Part shown: positions 6,224-27,358 of the stretch, piece after piece | Layout: each line of letters begins with the position of its first letter | Position numbering within the stretch: position 1 is the stretch's first letter | Assembly (NCBI GenBank): GCA_002753395.1 | Contig: PEAB01000041.1 | Location: 1-32,852 of the forward strand | Direction: 5' to 3' | Source of the DNA: Nitrospirae bacterium MYbinv3 | Lineage (GTDB): Bacteria > Nitrospirota > Thermodesulfovibrionia > Thermodesulfovibrionales > Magnetobacteriaceae | Length of the DNA: 32,852 nt | Made by a program: the position numbers and the translations under genes | Notes under the pieces: model-generated | The model's input: only the letters and a program-made list of their open reading frames with translations | Databases searched by the model: none | Told to the model about the DNA's origin: nothing

Positions 6224-6381
6224 GGGTGCATAAAAAACTCATGGGAACAAAAACATACTTTAATGGGGTCAATGTGACTGGTCACCTTGCGGAGGGGTCT
6301 GAGGGGAGTTTTTGCGAACCCCTGCGGCAACAGGCAGAGCCTCCTCTTCTTTGACAAAACCCACGACTTTCTTTTGTACCC
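6224..6381 (+). repeat. Repeat family E, uninterrupted copy
   Basis: Starts GGGTGCATAAAAAACTCATG, contains the core GGTCAATGTGACTGGTCACC, then GAGGGGTCTGAGGGGAG, GCGAACCCCTGCGGC and CTTTGACAAAACCCACGAC. This copy has no insertion and serves as the empty-site reference for the copy at 18567-18900. It fills the gap between the barrel gene and the next gene; nothing else was seen there. Confidence 0.85.
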
Positions 6382-9035: not shown

Positions 9036-9094
9036 ACCCAACCACATTAGTTTTTACCACATGATTAGCAACAGGCCAACTATTCACATAGAGA

Positions 9095-9192
9095 CTGTCT
9101 GAACCTTGATTACGCGGATTAAAGGATTTACAGGAAAAAGAGATAACATAATCCTGGCAATCCTTCAATCCGTTAAATCGTGGTTCAGACAG
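9095..9192. repeat. Repeat family A, copy 1 (imperfect palindrome)
   Basis: About 98 bp bounded by CTGTCTGAACC and GGTTCAGACAG. The two halves (ACGGATTAAAGGATT... and ...AATCCTTCAATCCGT) are near reverse complements, so the element can fold into a long hairpin. Full copies also lie at 11924, 12121, 13148 and 24036. Confidence 0.85.
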
Positions 9193-9198
9193 TTTCCA

Positions 9199-11262
9199 CT
9201 ATGTAGACCTCCTCTTTCTGAGGCGATGGGCCATCATTAACGCAGACAGCGTTATAAGTGTAATTGTGCCCCATTCGTTGATTGTAGGTACGTTCGTTAC
9301 TGTCTGGACAAACGCCACAGGGTCTACTATTGTGCCGTTGACTGTCAGGTCGTTGTCTCCGAGCTGCCCGTCTGTTAGGTGGAGGATAACGGTCTTCTGC
9401 CCCTGGTTAACGGTTATTTCGCCACAGGGTTTGTTGCTGACGGCGTTATTGCAGGTGAAGTCGTACCAGTGAGAGGTGGCATTAGTGGCTGTCGGCCCGT
9501 ATTTGAAGACCCTGTTAATGTTTACTGTCTGAGGCAGGGTAAAGATAACCTGAGTGTCGATGTTTGGCTGCACGTTCTGGACCGTGAAGGTTAGCGTGCC
9601 TAAGGGCAGGCGGCCGCTATTGCCAGTTGAGAGATTCAATCCGCTTACGTCAGGAGTTGCTGTAGAGCTAACGCTTGATAGGGTTGCAGGTAAGGTGGTT
9701 GAGATGTTGATGGTAACTGGCTTTCCCTTGTCGTCAGTGACCACCAATGGAGTTGGGGTTGACGTTGGCGTGGGTGTAGGAGTCGGGGTAGGAGTCGGAG
9801 TAGCCGTAGGGGTAGGAGTAGCGGTAGGTGTGGGCGTTGGCGTTGGAGTAGCCGTGGGTGTCGGGGTTGGTGTAGGCGTAGGCGTCAGATTGAACGTTGC
9901 CGTAATGTTCTTTGCCGCCGACATTGCTACCGTGCATGTTGAGCTTGTCCCAGAGCAGTCACCGCTCCAGCCAGTGAAGGTTGAATCAGGATCAGCCGTT
10001 GCGGTCAGGATTACGGATGCGCCAGTGGGATATGGAAAGGAACACGTTGAACCGCAGTTTATCTCAGAAAATGTGCTTGTTACAGTACCTGAGCCTGTGC
10101 CAGACTTAGAAATGACAAGATTGACCAAAGTACCAACCGGTCCAGAACGAACGGGCCAAACATAGCCGTTGAAGGACTTAGCTTCGGGGTAGTTGTAGCC
10201 AACGTTCATGTTGACGATCCACGCGTTGGACGTATAGCCAGCGCCAGTAGTCGACGACCAGTAGTGGAGGTTGCCAGACTGCACATTGGCAAATGGATGA
10301 CCGAATTGAAGCGGAGGGTTATACATTTCAAGATCAAGCAGGCTAAACAGCTCTTTTTTATTCGGAAGGCTCCAATCACTATAGCCAAGGTACCCTGCAC
10401 TGTTTAAGCATACTACATAATTTAGCGCGCCTTGCCAAGACATGCTGCCTCCTGTACATGACCCCACAGTGGGGGTACTGGCGTCTTTGCTCCATATGAG
10501 CTGTGTAAGGTTGTCTGTTACGGTATTGTTGCCGTTGTCTGTAAATCTCGGATTTGGCCAGGCCACACCCTTCTGCAACGCGCCGTCGTCACCAGCGGCA
10601 TAACTGGTCGTCTGTCCGGTTGCCCAAATAAACGAATTACCAAAAGCCCCAGATTGTCCAGAACGAACGGGCCAAACATAGAGGTTGAACGTTTTTTCGT
10701 ACTCGTTGCCGGCGAAGCCAACGCCCATATAGACGACCCACGCGCTGGACGTATAGCCAGCGCCAGTAGTCGACGACCAGTAGTAGGCGCCATACAGCAC
10801 ATTGGCAAAACCCTGTGAGTTGAGGCATGTTTCTTGATTTCCTTGGCCAGCGTTGAAAAGGCTCACCAGCTCGTTGATGTTCGGCAGCCGCCAGTCGGTG
10901 TAACCGTATGTACCGGCCCCGCTGTTCATCGTGGCAACATAGTCCAGCGCCCCTTGCCATGTAAAACCACCGGCAAGGTTGGCGTCTTTGGTCCACATTA
11001 GGCCGGTGAGGTTGTCGGTCATCGTTTGGTCGCCGTTGTCTGTGAAGCGCGGATTCGGCCATGCCACGCCCCTTTGCAATGCGCCATCGTCCCGCTGCGG
11101 GGTGTTATTATCGTAGCTCGTTGTCTGACCCGTCTGCGGCAGGCTCACGGTACCGGCGTTCACCGCTATGAACAGGAGCATCAGCACTGAAGCTGTTACG
11201 CAGAACACCACCAGCGACTTGTTTACTAAGTTGCTGCTTACTAAAATCCTTCGCTTTTTCAT
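9199..11262 (-). CDS. Exported protein: two Lcl/DUF1566 domains, beta repeat, TP-rich stalk, IPTL-CTERM tail
   Basis: 687 residues, start ATG behind GAGGAGGATT. An N-terminal signal segment (about 20-37) precedes two DUF1566/Lcl C-terminal-like domains (about 65-205 and 225-375). Each contains WPNPRFTDNG, DNLT, WQGAL, WSLPN/WRLPN, YYWSSTTGAGYTS and YVWPVRSG. Next come a bacterial InlB-type repeat (GSGTVTS...CSFPYPTGASVILTATAD...GWSGDC), a Thr-Pro linker of about 45 residues, a beta domain, and an IPTL-CTERM sorting tail (VPTINEWGTITLITLSALM then RLRKRR). This implies an exosortase-like export or anchoring route and surface display. The last about 125 bp of each DUF1566 domain (10657-10784 and 10141-10265) are much more alike in DNA than the rest, with adenine-biased differences. 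That is how variable regions of diversity-generating retroelements look. No reverse transcriptase is in the window. Confidence 0.85.
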   Translation of the reverse strand: MKKRRILVSSNLVNKSLVVFCVTASVLMLLFIAVNAGTVSLPQTGQTTSYDNNTPQRDDGALQRGVAWPNPRFTDNGDQTMTDNLTGLMWTKDANLAGGFTWQGALDYVATMNSGAGTYGYTDWRLPNINELVSLFNAGQGNQETCLNSQGFANVLYGAYYWSSTTGAGYTSSAWVVYMGVGFAGNEYEKTFNLYVWPVRSGQSGAFGNSFIWATGQTTSYAAGDDGALQKGVAWPNPRFTDNGNNTVTDNLTQLIWSKDASTPTVGSCTGGSMSWQGALNYVVCLNSAGYLGYSDWSLPNKKELFSLLDLEMYNPPLQFGHPFANVQSGNLHYWSSTTGAGYTSNAWIVNMNVGYNYPEAKSFNGYVWPVRSGPVGTLVNLVISKSGTGSGTVTSTFSEINCGSTCSFPYPTGASVILTATADPDSTFTGWSGDCSGTSSTCTVAMSAAKNITATFNLTPTPTPTPTPTATPTPTPTPTATPTPTATPTPTPTPTPTPTSTPTPLVVTDDKGKPVTINISTTLPATLSSVSSTATPDVSGLNLSTGNSGRLPLGTLTFTVQNVQPNIDTQVIFTLPQTVNINRVFKYGPTATNATSHWYDFTCNNAVSNKPCGEITVNQGQKTVILHLTDGQLGDNDLTVNGTIVDPVAFVQTVTNVPTINEWGTITLITLSALMMAHRLRKRRST
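9751..9885 (-). repeat. Tandem Thr-Pro coding repeat
   Basis: Short degenerate tandem repeats (GTAGGAGTCGGGGTAGGAGT type on the plus strand) encode the TPTPTPTATPTP stalk. Such DNA is prone to length change by slippage in multiples of six bases. Confidence 0.8.
10141..10265 (-). repeat. Variable-region-like segment 2 (DUF1566 domain 2 end)
   Basis: Shares a 47-bp block with one mismatch (10219-10265) and a 25-bp end (10141-10165) with segment 1. Between them the coding strand is rich in AAC codons (AWIVNMNVGYNY). See the finding on retroelement-like diversification. Confidence 0.6.
10657..10784 (-). repeat. Variable-region-like segment 1 (DUF1566 domain 1 end)
   Basis: Partner of 10141-10265. 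Positions where segment 2 has A on the coding strand hold G, T or C here (protein AWVVYMGVGFAG). Confidence 0.6.
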
Positions 11263-13104: not shown

Positions 13105-13281
13105 TTAATTTGACAATGTCATATTCCATTATAGTTGCAGTTAAAAATGTCTGAACCACGATTTAACAGATTTAAGGATTGTCAGGATTATGTTCTATCT
13201 TTTTCCTGCAAATCCTTTCATCCGTTTAATCCTAGTTCAGACAATCTCTATGTTTACTTAAATCTGACATTGTCAAATTAA
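13105..13281. repeat. Element G: 17-bp inverted repeats enclosing a repeat A copy
   Basis: TTAATTTGACAATGTCA at 13105-13121 and its exact reverse complement at 13265-13281 bound 177 bp. A complete repeat A (13148-13243) sits inside. The right arm ends 1 nt before the stop codon of the DNA methyltransferase gene. A left-end relative occurs at 26948-26985. Confidence 0.8.
13148..13243. repeat. Repeat family A, copy 4
   Basis: TGTCTGAACCACGATTTAAC ... TTTAATCCTAGTTCAGACA, inside element G. Confidence 0.85.
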
Positions 13282-17664: not shown

Positions 17665-17876
17665 AGGGTGCATAAGAAAAACATGGGAACTATATTGTTT
17701 ACAGGATCAGACCAAGTTGCGTTTATACCAGTATTAGTATAGAAGGGGAGACCCTGTCTCCCCACAGACCCCTTGTGGGTGGGTCTAGGGAGGTGGTTGC
17801 GAACCCCTGCGGCAGAGGCAAAGCCTTCGCTTAAGGCACTGTTAATAGGGGGCAAAATCGTGGGATACTACTGCTT
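17665..17876. repeat. Repeat family E variant
   Basis: Starts with the E end AGGGTGCATAAGAAAAACAT, carries the 52-bp block at 17712-17763 and then GGTTGCGAACCCCTGCGGCA. The block contains the hairpin GGGGAGAC-CCT-GTCTCCCC. The 52-bp block recurs with one mismatch at 32018-32069. It fills the gap between two minus-strand genes. Confidence 0.75.
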
Positions 17877-18530: not shown

Positions 18531-18648
18531 TGGACTTGTAATAGTTCACCCGTATGTATTTAGATCGGGTGCATATAAAACTTATGGAAACAAAAACATA
18601 CTTTAATGGGGCAAGAGGACTGGTCACCTTGCGGAGGGGTCTGAGGGA

Positions 18649-18814
18649 TAATGCTGTTGACTTAAGCATTATTGATGTATAGCAAGTAACATCTTTAGCA
18701 GTCACGCATGACATTTACGGGGTCAAGGGGACGAGTCCCCTTGTGGGAGGGTCTAGGGAGGGCAAAGCCCTCTCTATTTTTTTGCATCTTTATATCCTTA
18801 AGTCAACAGCATTA
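18649..18814 (+). mobile_element. MITE family C, copy 1 (166 bp)
   Basis: TAATGCTGTTGACTTAAG at 18649-18666 and its exact reverse complement at 18797-18814 bound the element. Flanks read GGTCTGAGGGA on the left and GGTCTGAAGGG on the right, an imperfect target duplication of about 11 bp. The uninterrupted E copy at 6224-6381 gives the empty site. It encodes no protein. Inside are the E/K core and a hairpin with T-tract, so it could end transcription on its plus strand. Confidence 0.85.
18758..18784 (+). terminator. Terminator-like hairpin inside MITE C copy 1
   Basis: GAGGGC-AAA-GCCCTC (18758-18772) followed by TCTATTTTTTT. The same hairpin occurs in MITE copy 2 (27246-27267) and in the repeat at 2591-2622. 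Confidence 0.65.
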
Positions 18815-18913
18815 GGTCTGAAGGGAGGGATTGCGAACCCCTGCGTCAATAGGCAGAGCCTCCCCTTCTTTGACAAAACCCACGACTTATTATGCGCCCC
18901 TTTTTTCTACACA

Positions 18914-18943: not shown

Positions 18944-18953
18944 ATATATGTTT

Positions 18954-20042
18954 ATGTCGTTAGAAGTTTTTGAGAAGCTCAAGGATGGACAGAGGCTTAA
19001 CTCAGAGGATGCCTTATCGCTGTTTGCATCGGATAACCTGTTTGAGATAGGACAGGCGGCTGCTGGTGTAGCTTATAAACTACACGGGAATAAGGTGTAC
19101 TATACGAGAAATCACCACATCAACCCTACAAACATCTGCGTCAACAGGTGTAAGTTCTGCGCCTTTAGCCGCTCAAGCGGACAGGCAGGGGCATATGCCC
19201 TCACCATAGATGATATAGTCGAGAAGCTGAAGGCCTCGCAGCAGCCCCCAGTGGAAGTGCATGTGGTAGGCGGTCTCCACCCTGATTGGCCATTTGACTA
19301 CTACCTCAATATGCTGACCACCATAAAGGATAACTTCCCTAAAGTACACATAAAGGCATTTACAGCCGTGGAGATAGACTACCTGTCGCGGATAAGCGGG
19401 TTGGACCTGTGTCAGACGCTGCTTACGTTAAAGGCTCACGGACTTGACACGATGCCTGGCGGAGGTGCGGAGATCTTTGCCAACACAGTTAGACAAACAC
19501 TCTGCCCGGAGAAAATATCGGCGGAGAGATGGCTTACCGTACACGAAACAGCACACAAGATGAACATAAAGACCAATGCGACGATGCTATATAGACACGT
19601 AGAATCGTACCAGGACAGAGTGGAGCATCTCATGGCGCTGCGTCAACTTCAGGATAGAACTGGCGGTTTTCAGGCATTCGTCCCACTTAGTTTTCAACCG
19701 CTAACTACCGTAGAAAGCGGTATTATAGATCGTAACACACAGATAGACGCCCCCTTCCCATCGGCAATTGATGACCTTAAGACGATAGCAATTAGCAGGC
19801 TGGTGCTTGATAACGTTCCTCACATCAAGGCCTACTGGATCATGTTGGGAGAGAAGCTTACTCAGACAGCTCTCTTGTTTGGCGCTAGTGACGTTGACGG
19901 CACCGTTATGGAAGAAAAGATAGCACACAGCGCAGGCGCTGACTCTGGCCTGATGCACACGGTAGAGGAGCTAAAACACATGCTAAGGAAGGCCGGAAAG
20001 ATACCTGTACAACGAAACGCCTTTTACGAGGAGATTGATTGA
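18954..20042 (+). CDS. mqnE: Aminodeoxyfutalosine synthase MqnE
   Basis: 362 residues from ATG 18954, or 364 from ATG 18948. Radical SAM motif NPTNICVNRCKFCAF (C64, C68, C71 in the longer numbering). VHVVGGLHPDWPFDYY, FTAVEIDYLSR and the signature MPGGGAEIF are typical of MqnE. It joins S-adenosylmethionine to 3-(1-carboxyvinyl)oxybenzoate to give aminodeoxyfutalosine in the futalosine route to menaquinone. Its stop overlaps the TTG start of mqnC by 4 nt, so the two are coupled. The other steps (mqnA, mqnB, mqnD) are not in the window. The candidate promoter at 18914-18943 supports the later start. Confidence 0.9.
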   Translation: MSLEVFEKLKDGQRLNSEDALSLFASDNLFEIGQAAAGVAYKLHGNKVYYTRNHHINPTNICVNRCKFCAFSRSSGQAGAYALTIDDIVEKLKASQQPPVEVHVVGGLHPDWPFDYYLNMLTTIKDNFPKVHIKAFTAVEIDYLSRISGLDLCQTLLTLKAHGLDTMPGGGAEIFANTVRQTLCPEKISAERWLTVHETAHKMNIKTNATMLYRHVESYQDRVEHLMALRQLQDRTGGFQAFVPLSFQPLTTVESGIIDRNTQIDAPFPSAIDDLKTIAISRLVLDNVPHIKAYWIMLGEKLTQTALLFGASDVDGTVMEEKIAHSAGADSGLMHTVEELKHMLRKAGKIPVQRNAFYEEID

Positions 20043-23748: not shown

Positions 23749-23922
23749 ATACCTCCTTCCTCCTTATTTAGACTTAATATCAGGCATACTGCCCGCCCGC
23801 TCTCAACATCGATACCATTATTATAATCGACACGAAAAGACACTTGCAGCTTTATCGGTTTATTAAGTTGATTTCTTTAGTTGTTTCTACTTTGACAATT
23901 TTAGATCTAAGTAAGCATTTGG

Positions 23923-24024
23923 GGTAGTCCTGCAGAGGTAGTGATATTCAATCCCCCTCCCTTGATGGGAGGGGTTAGGGGAGGGTTTTAAGTTTACTGT
24001 CACCACTACTTGTGCAGGACTACC
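23923..24024. repeat. Repeat family D, intact copy
   Basis: 102 bp bounded by GGTAGTCCTGCA and its exact reverse complement. Internal parts are GAGGTAGTGATATTCAAT, a G/C-rich GGGAGGGGTTAGGGGAGGG stretch and TTACTGTCACCACTACT. It is the empty-site reference for the interrupted copy at 27082-27358. The preceding part (23762-23922) is AT-rich with no recognisable feature. Confidence 0.85.
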
Positions 24025-24035
24025 AGCATTTGGAT

Positions 24036-24132
24036 TGTCTGAGCTAGGATTACACAGATTAAAAGATTAACAGGAAAAAGATTTTAAATAAACCTGGTAA
24101 TCCCTTAATCCGTTAAATCGTGGTTCAGACAT
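24036..24132. repeat. Repeat family A, copy 5
   Basis: TGTCTGAGCTAGGATTACAC ... CCGTTAAATCGTGGTTCAGACA, 11 nt after repeat D. The following 24133-24160 matches the reverse complement of the G-type flank seen at 26960-26985. Confidence 0.85.
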
Positions 24133-24238
24133 TTCTATTGCAACCATATCATGGCAATCGCATTTACGCATTTGTAAAAATTGGAATTCCCTCATTTAAT
24201 AGTGTATCATAAAACATATCAAAAGGATCAAGGTTATT

Positions 24239-26950: not shown

Positions 26951-27081
26951 TTTGACGCTGTCATATTCCATATGGTTGCAACAAACTGTCTGAACCACGA
27001 TTTAACGGATTAAGAGATTAACAGGATTAGTTAAAATTGTGTGTTTTTGCACTTTTCCATCAATAGTGATTTTGTAAAGCA

Positions 27082-27358
27082 GTAGTCCTGCACAAGTAGT
27101 GGTGACAGTAAATTTGACACCCTCCCCTAACCCCTAATACTGTTGACTTAAGCATTAATATGTATGCACATGGGCGACATTTTAAGCAGCCATGCCTGAC
27201 ATTTACAGGGTCAAGGGAACAAGTTCCCTTGTGGGAGGGTCTAAGGGAGGGCAAAGCCCTTCTTTTTTCATCTTCACAACCTTAAGTCAACAGCATTACC
27301 CCTAACCCCTCCCATCAAGGGAGGAGGATTGAATATCACTACCTCTGTAGTGACTACC
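27082..27358. repeat. Repeat family D copy split by a MITE
   Basis: GTAGTCCTGCACAAGTAGTG at the left and ATATCACTACCTCTGTAGTG then ACTACC at the right correspond to the intact copy at 23923-24024 in reverse orientation. MITE C interrupts it inside the CCCCTAACCCCT stretch. Confidence 0.85.
27135..27298 (+). mobile_element. MITE family C, copy 2 (164 bp)
   Basis: Terminal inverted repeats TAATACTGTTGACTTAAG (27135-27152) and CTTAAGTCAACAGCATTA (27281-27298) match at 17 of 18 positions. It is flanked by an exact 11-bp direct repeat, CCCCTAACCCC, at 27124-27134 and 27299-27309. The intact D copy has this sequence once, so it is a true target site duplication. It carries no gene; the E/K core and an AGGGC-AAA-GCCCT hairpin with TTCTTTTTT lie inside. 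Confidence 0.9.

Follow-up and report, generated by a model that had tools for sequence, protein, structure and literature searches.

A short element inserted in two dispersed repeats

The window analyzed here, i.e., the whole stretch of 32,852 nucleotides that forms contig 66 of the 3.71-Mb genome of Nitrospirae bacterium MYbinv3 (175 contigs), carries a short sequence, here called element C, inside another repeat. This raises the question of whether C reached its position by transposition and, if so, which enzyme moved it. An initial annotation had described C as a miniature inverted-repeat transposable element (MITE) with 18-bp terminal inverted repeats (TIRs) and an exact 11-bp target duplication that splits the surrounding repeat. 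We found all coordinates of this description to be correct. Copy 1 of C occupies positions 27135 to 27298 (+ strand; 164 bp) and is 98% identical to its nearest other genomic copy. Its TIRs, located at 27135 to 27152 (+; TAATACTGTTGACTTAAG, followed by CAT) and at 27281 to 27298 (-; TAATGCTGTTGACTTAAG, followed by G), are 18 bp long and differ by one mismatch. They are the counterparts of the right and left ends, respectively, of an insertion sequence (IS) that is described below. The 11-bp sequence CCCCTAACCCC is present in identical form on the left (27124 to 27134) and on the right (27299 to 27309) of the element, and the repeat that is thereby split, repeat D, extends from 27081 to 27358 (-), with arms at 27081 to 27134 and 27299 to 27358 (inverted repeats).

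A second copy of C, proposed to split a different repeat, E, with an imperfect 11-bp duplication, was likewise seen. This copy (18649 to 18814, +; 166 bp) has perfect 18-bp TIRs at 18649 to 18666 and 18797 to 18814, and its flanks GGTCTGAGGGA (18638 to 18648) and GGTCTGAAGGG (18815 to 18825) agree at 9 of 11 positions. The interrupted repeat E spans 18567 to 18899 (+), with arms at 18567 to 18648 and 18815 to 18899 (families D7 and D14). Unoccupied forms of both repeats lie in the same window: the intact D at 23923 to 24024 (+) carries the 11-mer once (GGGGTTAGGGG, 23971 to 23981), as does the intact E at 6224 to 6381 (+; GGTCTGAGGGG, 6296 to 6306). The window thus contains two filled and two empty sites.

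The repeats that surround C have ends of their own. Repeat D has a terminal inverted repeat, GGTAGTCCTGCA (12/12; 18/20), and its intact copy is flanked by the exact 9-bp duplication AGCATTTGG (23914 to 23922 and 24025 to 24033). D is therefore itself MITE-like, and copy 1 is a MITE nested in a different kind of MITE. The ends of repeat E at 6224 to 6381 form an imperfect terminal repeat (GGGTGCATAAGAAA/TTTCTTATGCACCC), and E modules are also found at 17666 and 30821 of the window and in other parts of the genome. Copy 2 is situated between divergently oriented genes and immediately upstream of one of them, a radical SAM gene of the MqnC/CofH type (18948 to 20042); the insertion could affect the promoter of this gene. 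Repeats also occur within a coding sequence of the window: the gene at 9199 to 11262 (-) contains internal DNA repeats approximately 516 bp apart and encodes a 687-amino-acid protein that contains an InlB-like B repeat and two Lcl_C (DUF1566-type) segments.

Genome-wide copies and target duplications

A search of the 3.71-Mb genome for the TIR with up to two mismatches returned 241 occurrences, compared to 0 for the reversed control. Pairing of TIRs by script in 101 regions around listed TIRs yielded complete copies of C in a number that is a lower bound, namely, at least 51. Most of these copies measure 164 to 167 bp, with shorter (105 to 128 bp) and longer (175 to 439 bp) variants, and no open reading frame of at least 100 amino acids was found within C. 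An exact 11-bp duplication flanks 25 of the 51 complete copies, and 39 of the 51 have flanks that match at 9 or more of 11 positions. At every other length from 5 to 16 bp, no exact flank match was detected among these 51 copies. Some copies at separate loci are identical over 166 bp, indicating that at least part of the spread is not ancient. C is thus a short, noncoding sequence that is bounded by TIRs, is flanked by duplications of a fixed length of 11 bp, and is present in many dispersed copies, as is characteristic of MITEs. Mismatched flanks were observed in about 12 of the 51 copies. In some copies, such as L126 and L169, one flank is of the D type and the other is of the E type, a pattern suggestive of recombination between copies of C.

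The 39 duplicated targets (9 or more of 11 positions) comprised 19 of the D type (CCCCTAACCCC), 18 of the E type (CCCCTCAGACC, i.e., GGTCTGAGGGG on the opposite strand), and 2 others, with the consensus CCCCT(A/C)A(C/G)(C/A)CC. Exact duplications outside D and E were those of GGGGTTATCCT (L143) and GGGGTGAGCCA (L088); since these two targets belong to neither repeat, recognition may depend on the 11-mer rather than on the repeat as a whole. Insertions of C were found in both orientations. Candidate targets in the genome number at least 50 D sites that are near-intact and empty and 143 sites of the E type. As read from the sequence, the 11-mers of D and E alike coincide in part with the base of a G/C-rich hairpin.

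The initial annotation had held that the repeats reflect real transposition and not mere palindromic structure. In addition to the 11-bp duplications and the pairs of filled and empty sites, this claim gained support from orthologous loci. Both window insertions were absent wherever the neighboring gene was found in congeners: neither the region downstream of the SprT-like gene nor that upstream of mqnC contained C in those congeners in which the genes were located. Upstream of mqnC, the congener G002 (Nitrospirae MAG nDJH13bin1) has an E-like hairpin without C. Neither a general lack of target duplications among the genome copies nor a presence at the same loci in all relatives, which would have counted against the claim, was observed.

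An IS4-family insertion sequence with the same ends

A search of the same genome with DDE_Tnp_1 led to a transposase at C101. Its reading frame terminates in a C-type TIR (one mismatch), and GGGGTTAGGGG and the remainder of D come immediately after this TIR. This transposase matched the NCBIfam model NF033592 (transpos_IS4_1) with an E value of 4.5e-44 and 150.9 bits (cut-off, 115) and PF01609 with 46.3 bits. It contains the Y(2)R(3)E(6)K motif (YFKRWAIEGGYRDEK), and its catalytic spacing, D(77)D(115)E, falls within the D(60-110)D(100-150)E range of the IS4 family. Degraded IS4 copies were present at C117, C60, C108, and C137. The same TIR accompanies the transposase at C101, C117, and C60 and also in G002, a genome with many partial IS4 copies. 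Two of the copies in G002 are internally deleted elements of 654 and 454 bp that retain both TIRs and have lost most of the gene. The full length of the IS, approximately 1.5 kb, was inferred by overlap of three partial copies (L183, L186, and L057), among which there was neither an intact copy nor an intact open reading frame.

The full transposon ending in the termini of C that the annotation had called for was thus recovered in part. An IS4 transposase with a matching right TIR stands beside a D target, and both ends of the IS are known from G002; none of the genomes examined yielded a transposase gene that is uninterrupted and has both TIRs, as every copy is truncated, frameshifted, or broken off at a contig end. 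Since the assembly is a draft of 175 contigs, some of which end inside IS ends, an intact copy may be missing from it.

The ends of C and of the IS also agree in their asymmetry. The right end of the IS continues with CAT and the left end continues with G, and in 40 of 51 copies of C, the base next to the TIR is C at one end and G at the other, indicating that polarity has been kept. C has ends in common with an autonomous transposon, with identity past the TIR limited to a few bases; the likeness is convincing over about 20 bp only, and the cores are unrelated. Elements of the IS4 subgroup have ends of the form -AATR--------WTW----, a length of 1,400 to 1,650 bp, and duplications of 10 to 13 bp (PMC2266710). 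TAATGCTGTTGACTTAAG matches every fixed position of this end, and the 11-bp duplication lies within the range. The IS231 subgroup had been considered first because of a common CTTAAG and was rejected in favor of the IS4 subgroup, since the tips read TAATG and not the CAT of CAT-------AA--TAA--- (PMC2266710).

Among 395 Nitrospirota genomes, no close intact relative of the transposase was found outside the genus. A distant IS4 relative (42% identity) on a plasmid of Methylomagnum ishizawai has the related end CAATGCTGTTGAATTA, indicating that end and transposase go together. This relative lies between inverted G/C-rich arms (GGACGGGGC/GCCCCGTCC), which suggests a palindromic target in Methylomagnum too; a recognizable target duplication was not found around it.

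Cores, half-elements, and distribution in the genus

The core of C is not derived from the IS. It is E-like and contains the hairpins CAAGGGNAC..GTNCCCTTG and GGGAGGGCAAAGCCCTCCC, and two longer copies of C include more of E. In the congeners G001 and G003, C-type TIRs enclose another repeat, TGTCTGAACC...GGTTCAGACA (L049/L190 and L176 to L180), and five of six of these elements have duplications matching at 10 to 11 of 11 positions. One pair of IS ends thus carries different repeat cores in sister species. The TGTCTGAACC repeat also stands alone in the window, e.g., at 9086 to 9200, 13138 to 13253, and 24026 to 24137.

The TIR is restricted to this genus: three congeners have 6, 23, and 30 occurrences, and the counts elsewhere in the order are at chance level. 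When viral contigs were searched for the exact TIR, 16 solitary matches appeared, none with a partner TIR; most stood in a small number of repeated contexts that have no relation to C. C is thus not carried by those viruses.

Among the TIRs analyzed in the MYbinv3 genome, 87 were unpartnered, of which 17 run into a contig end. Most of the others keep the G end; outward, they are joined to GGTCTGAGGGG of E, and inward, they pass the core hairpin and enter the opposite side of E. The orientation of these G-end half-elements in E is uneven (35:2) compared to that of complete copies (16:7), a difference of modest significance (Fisher P = 0.02). Given this orientation bias and the position of the junctions within a common hairpin, the half-elements apparently arose by deletion of the DNA between the E-target hairpin and its counterpart in the C core. 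One-ended transposition was considered as their origin and rejected, as the same two observations favor deletion between repeats. The half-elements have possibly been multiplied by movement of E and would then represent nonindependent events.

Probable mode of mobilization of C and alternative explanations

We consider it very probable that C is a nonautonomous MITE that combines the ends of an IS4-subgroup IS of approximately 1.5 kb with an E-like core and that it was moved in trans by an IS4-type transposase into a preferred 11-bp site. IS4-family elements are known to move by cut-and-paste, and we infer both this mechanism and mobilization by a transposase of the C101 type for C. The transposase, supplied in trans, would bind the 18-bp TIRs of C, excise the element, and insert it at the consensus site, which is carried mainly by the dispersed palindromic repeats D and E, and the insertion would duplicate all 11 bp. 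When C is inserted into E in one orientation, its E-like core and the E target would form nearby direct repeats. Deletion between these would leave a half-element with a single TIR, as suggested by the junctions and the orientation bias.

Homologous recombination or gene conversion among palindromic repeats might instead have been the main means by which C spread, in which case the 11-mers would seem to be duplicated by virtue of the G/C-rich motifs common to D and E. The targets are indeed repeats, random re-pairing of the flanks already gives a mean of 4.6 exact 11-bp matches, and the D/E hybrid flanks indicate that recombination between copies does occur. However, the 25 exact matches observed lie well above the maximum of 12 reached in 5,000 re-pairings, and they occur at a length of 11 only; moreover, exact duplications of GGGGTTATCCT and GGGGTGAGCCA are found outside D and E, and the 11-mer is single in the empty D and E sites. 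Recombination as the main route of spread is thus largely refuted, and we regard it as highly improbable. Very little weight falls on a reading of C as a REPIN/REP-like element moved by a single-strand (HUH or IS200-type) transposase acting on hairpins. C is strongly palindromic, with a z score of -4.4 for folding of single-stranded DNA, which would suit such an enzyme; however, REPINs and IS200-type elements are not known to make target duplications or to have long TIRs, whereas C makes 11-bp duplications and its TIRs match those of an IS4-family IS.

It is also very unlikely that C was moved by some other transposase with similar ends, with the IS4 copies of the same TIR being just a further passenger or a partner of earlier times. 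Such a scenario would account for the lack of an intact IS4 copy in an assembly in which identical copies of C suggest fairly recent movement. The duplication length, the end consensus, the target site, and the restriction to the genus nevertheless all agree between the IS4 elements and C, and the IS4 relative in Methylomagnum has a related end as well. Trans-mobilization of C by the IS4-type transposase accordingly stays the reading that we favor.

Comparison with known elements

MITEs of ISs are common, and IS4-family ends around unrelated cargo are known from IS231 and the mobile insertion cassettes (MICs) of Bacillus cereus, which are moved in trans. C resembles these elements in having IS4-family ends around a core of other origin. 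Its ends start with TAATG, in contrast to the CAT of IS231, and its cargo is a dispersed repeat (E-like here and the TGTCTGAACC repeat in congeners), whereas that of MICs consists of genes. IS231 makes duplications of 10 to 12 bp (PMC2266710), similar in length to those of C.

With the IS4 subgroup as defined by De Palmenaer et al. in 2008 (PMC2266710), the system shares its ends, the 11-bp duplication, the YREK motif and DDE spacings, and, presumably, the length of the partner IS, which partial copies place near 1.5 kb. Some elements of this subgroup are known for their marked insertion specificity (PMC2266710). As to differences, C itself is nonautonomous, the specificity here includes the duplicated 11-mer itself, and the lineage of the partner IS was found in one genus only among 395 genomes of the phylum (E value of 1e-30 or lower). 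ISRm22, an IS4-family element of Sinorhizobium meliloti, has all of its copies inserted in dispersed palindromic repeats, with some hybrid flanks that were attributed to recombination between copies (Tobes and Pareja 2006, PMC1525189). C shares with ISRm22 and other REP-targeting ISs both the insertion into dispersed palindromic repeats and the occurrence of some hybrid flanks. ISRm22 is, however, a full IS with duplications given as 6 bp (PMC1525189), whereas C is a MITE with 11-bp duplications and two unrelated families of target repeats, D and E. BrickBuilt of Porphyromonas gingivalis, like C, is a bacterial MITE with another type of repeat as its core, in that case a minisatellite, and its duplications are of inconsistent length (PMC4596501). 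By contrast, the palindromic repeat that forms the core of C is related to the target of C, and the 11-bp duplications are consistent. A literature search of incomplete coverage returned no report of MITEs in Nitrospirae.

C is thus a combination of known traits, namely, targeting of palindromic repeats, IS4 ends with foreign cargo, and a MITE of an IS, and it changes no principle of transposition. It extends the short list of elements that home to palindromic repeats and shows cleanly how a single set of IS ends can enclose different repeat cores in related species of a genus. More tentatively, the MITE lineage may repeatedly adopt as its core other palindromic repeats that are dispersed in the genome (E-like here and TGTCTGAACC in two congeners) while the transposase targets such repeats, an idea that we consider possible but doubtful. 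If it were true, target and cargo would feed each other: insertion into E would create direct repeats and, from these, half-elements, and similar recombination may swap cores. For the organism itself, the repeat-rich Nitrospirota genome constitutes a readable record of nested transposition, with filled and empty sites, an 11-bp signature, an IS family, and the products of decay.
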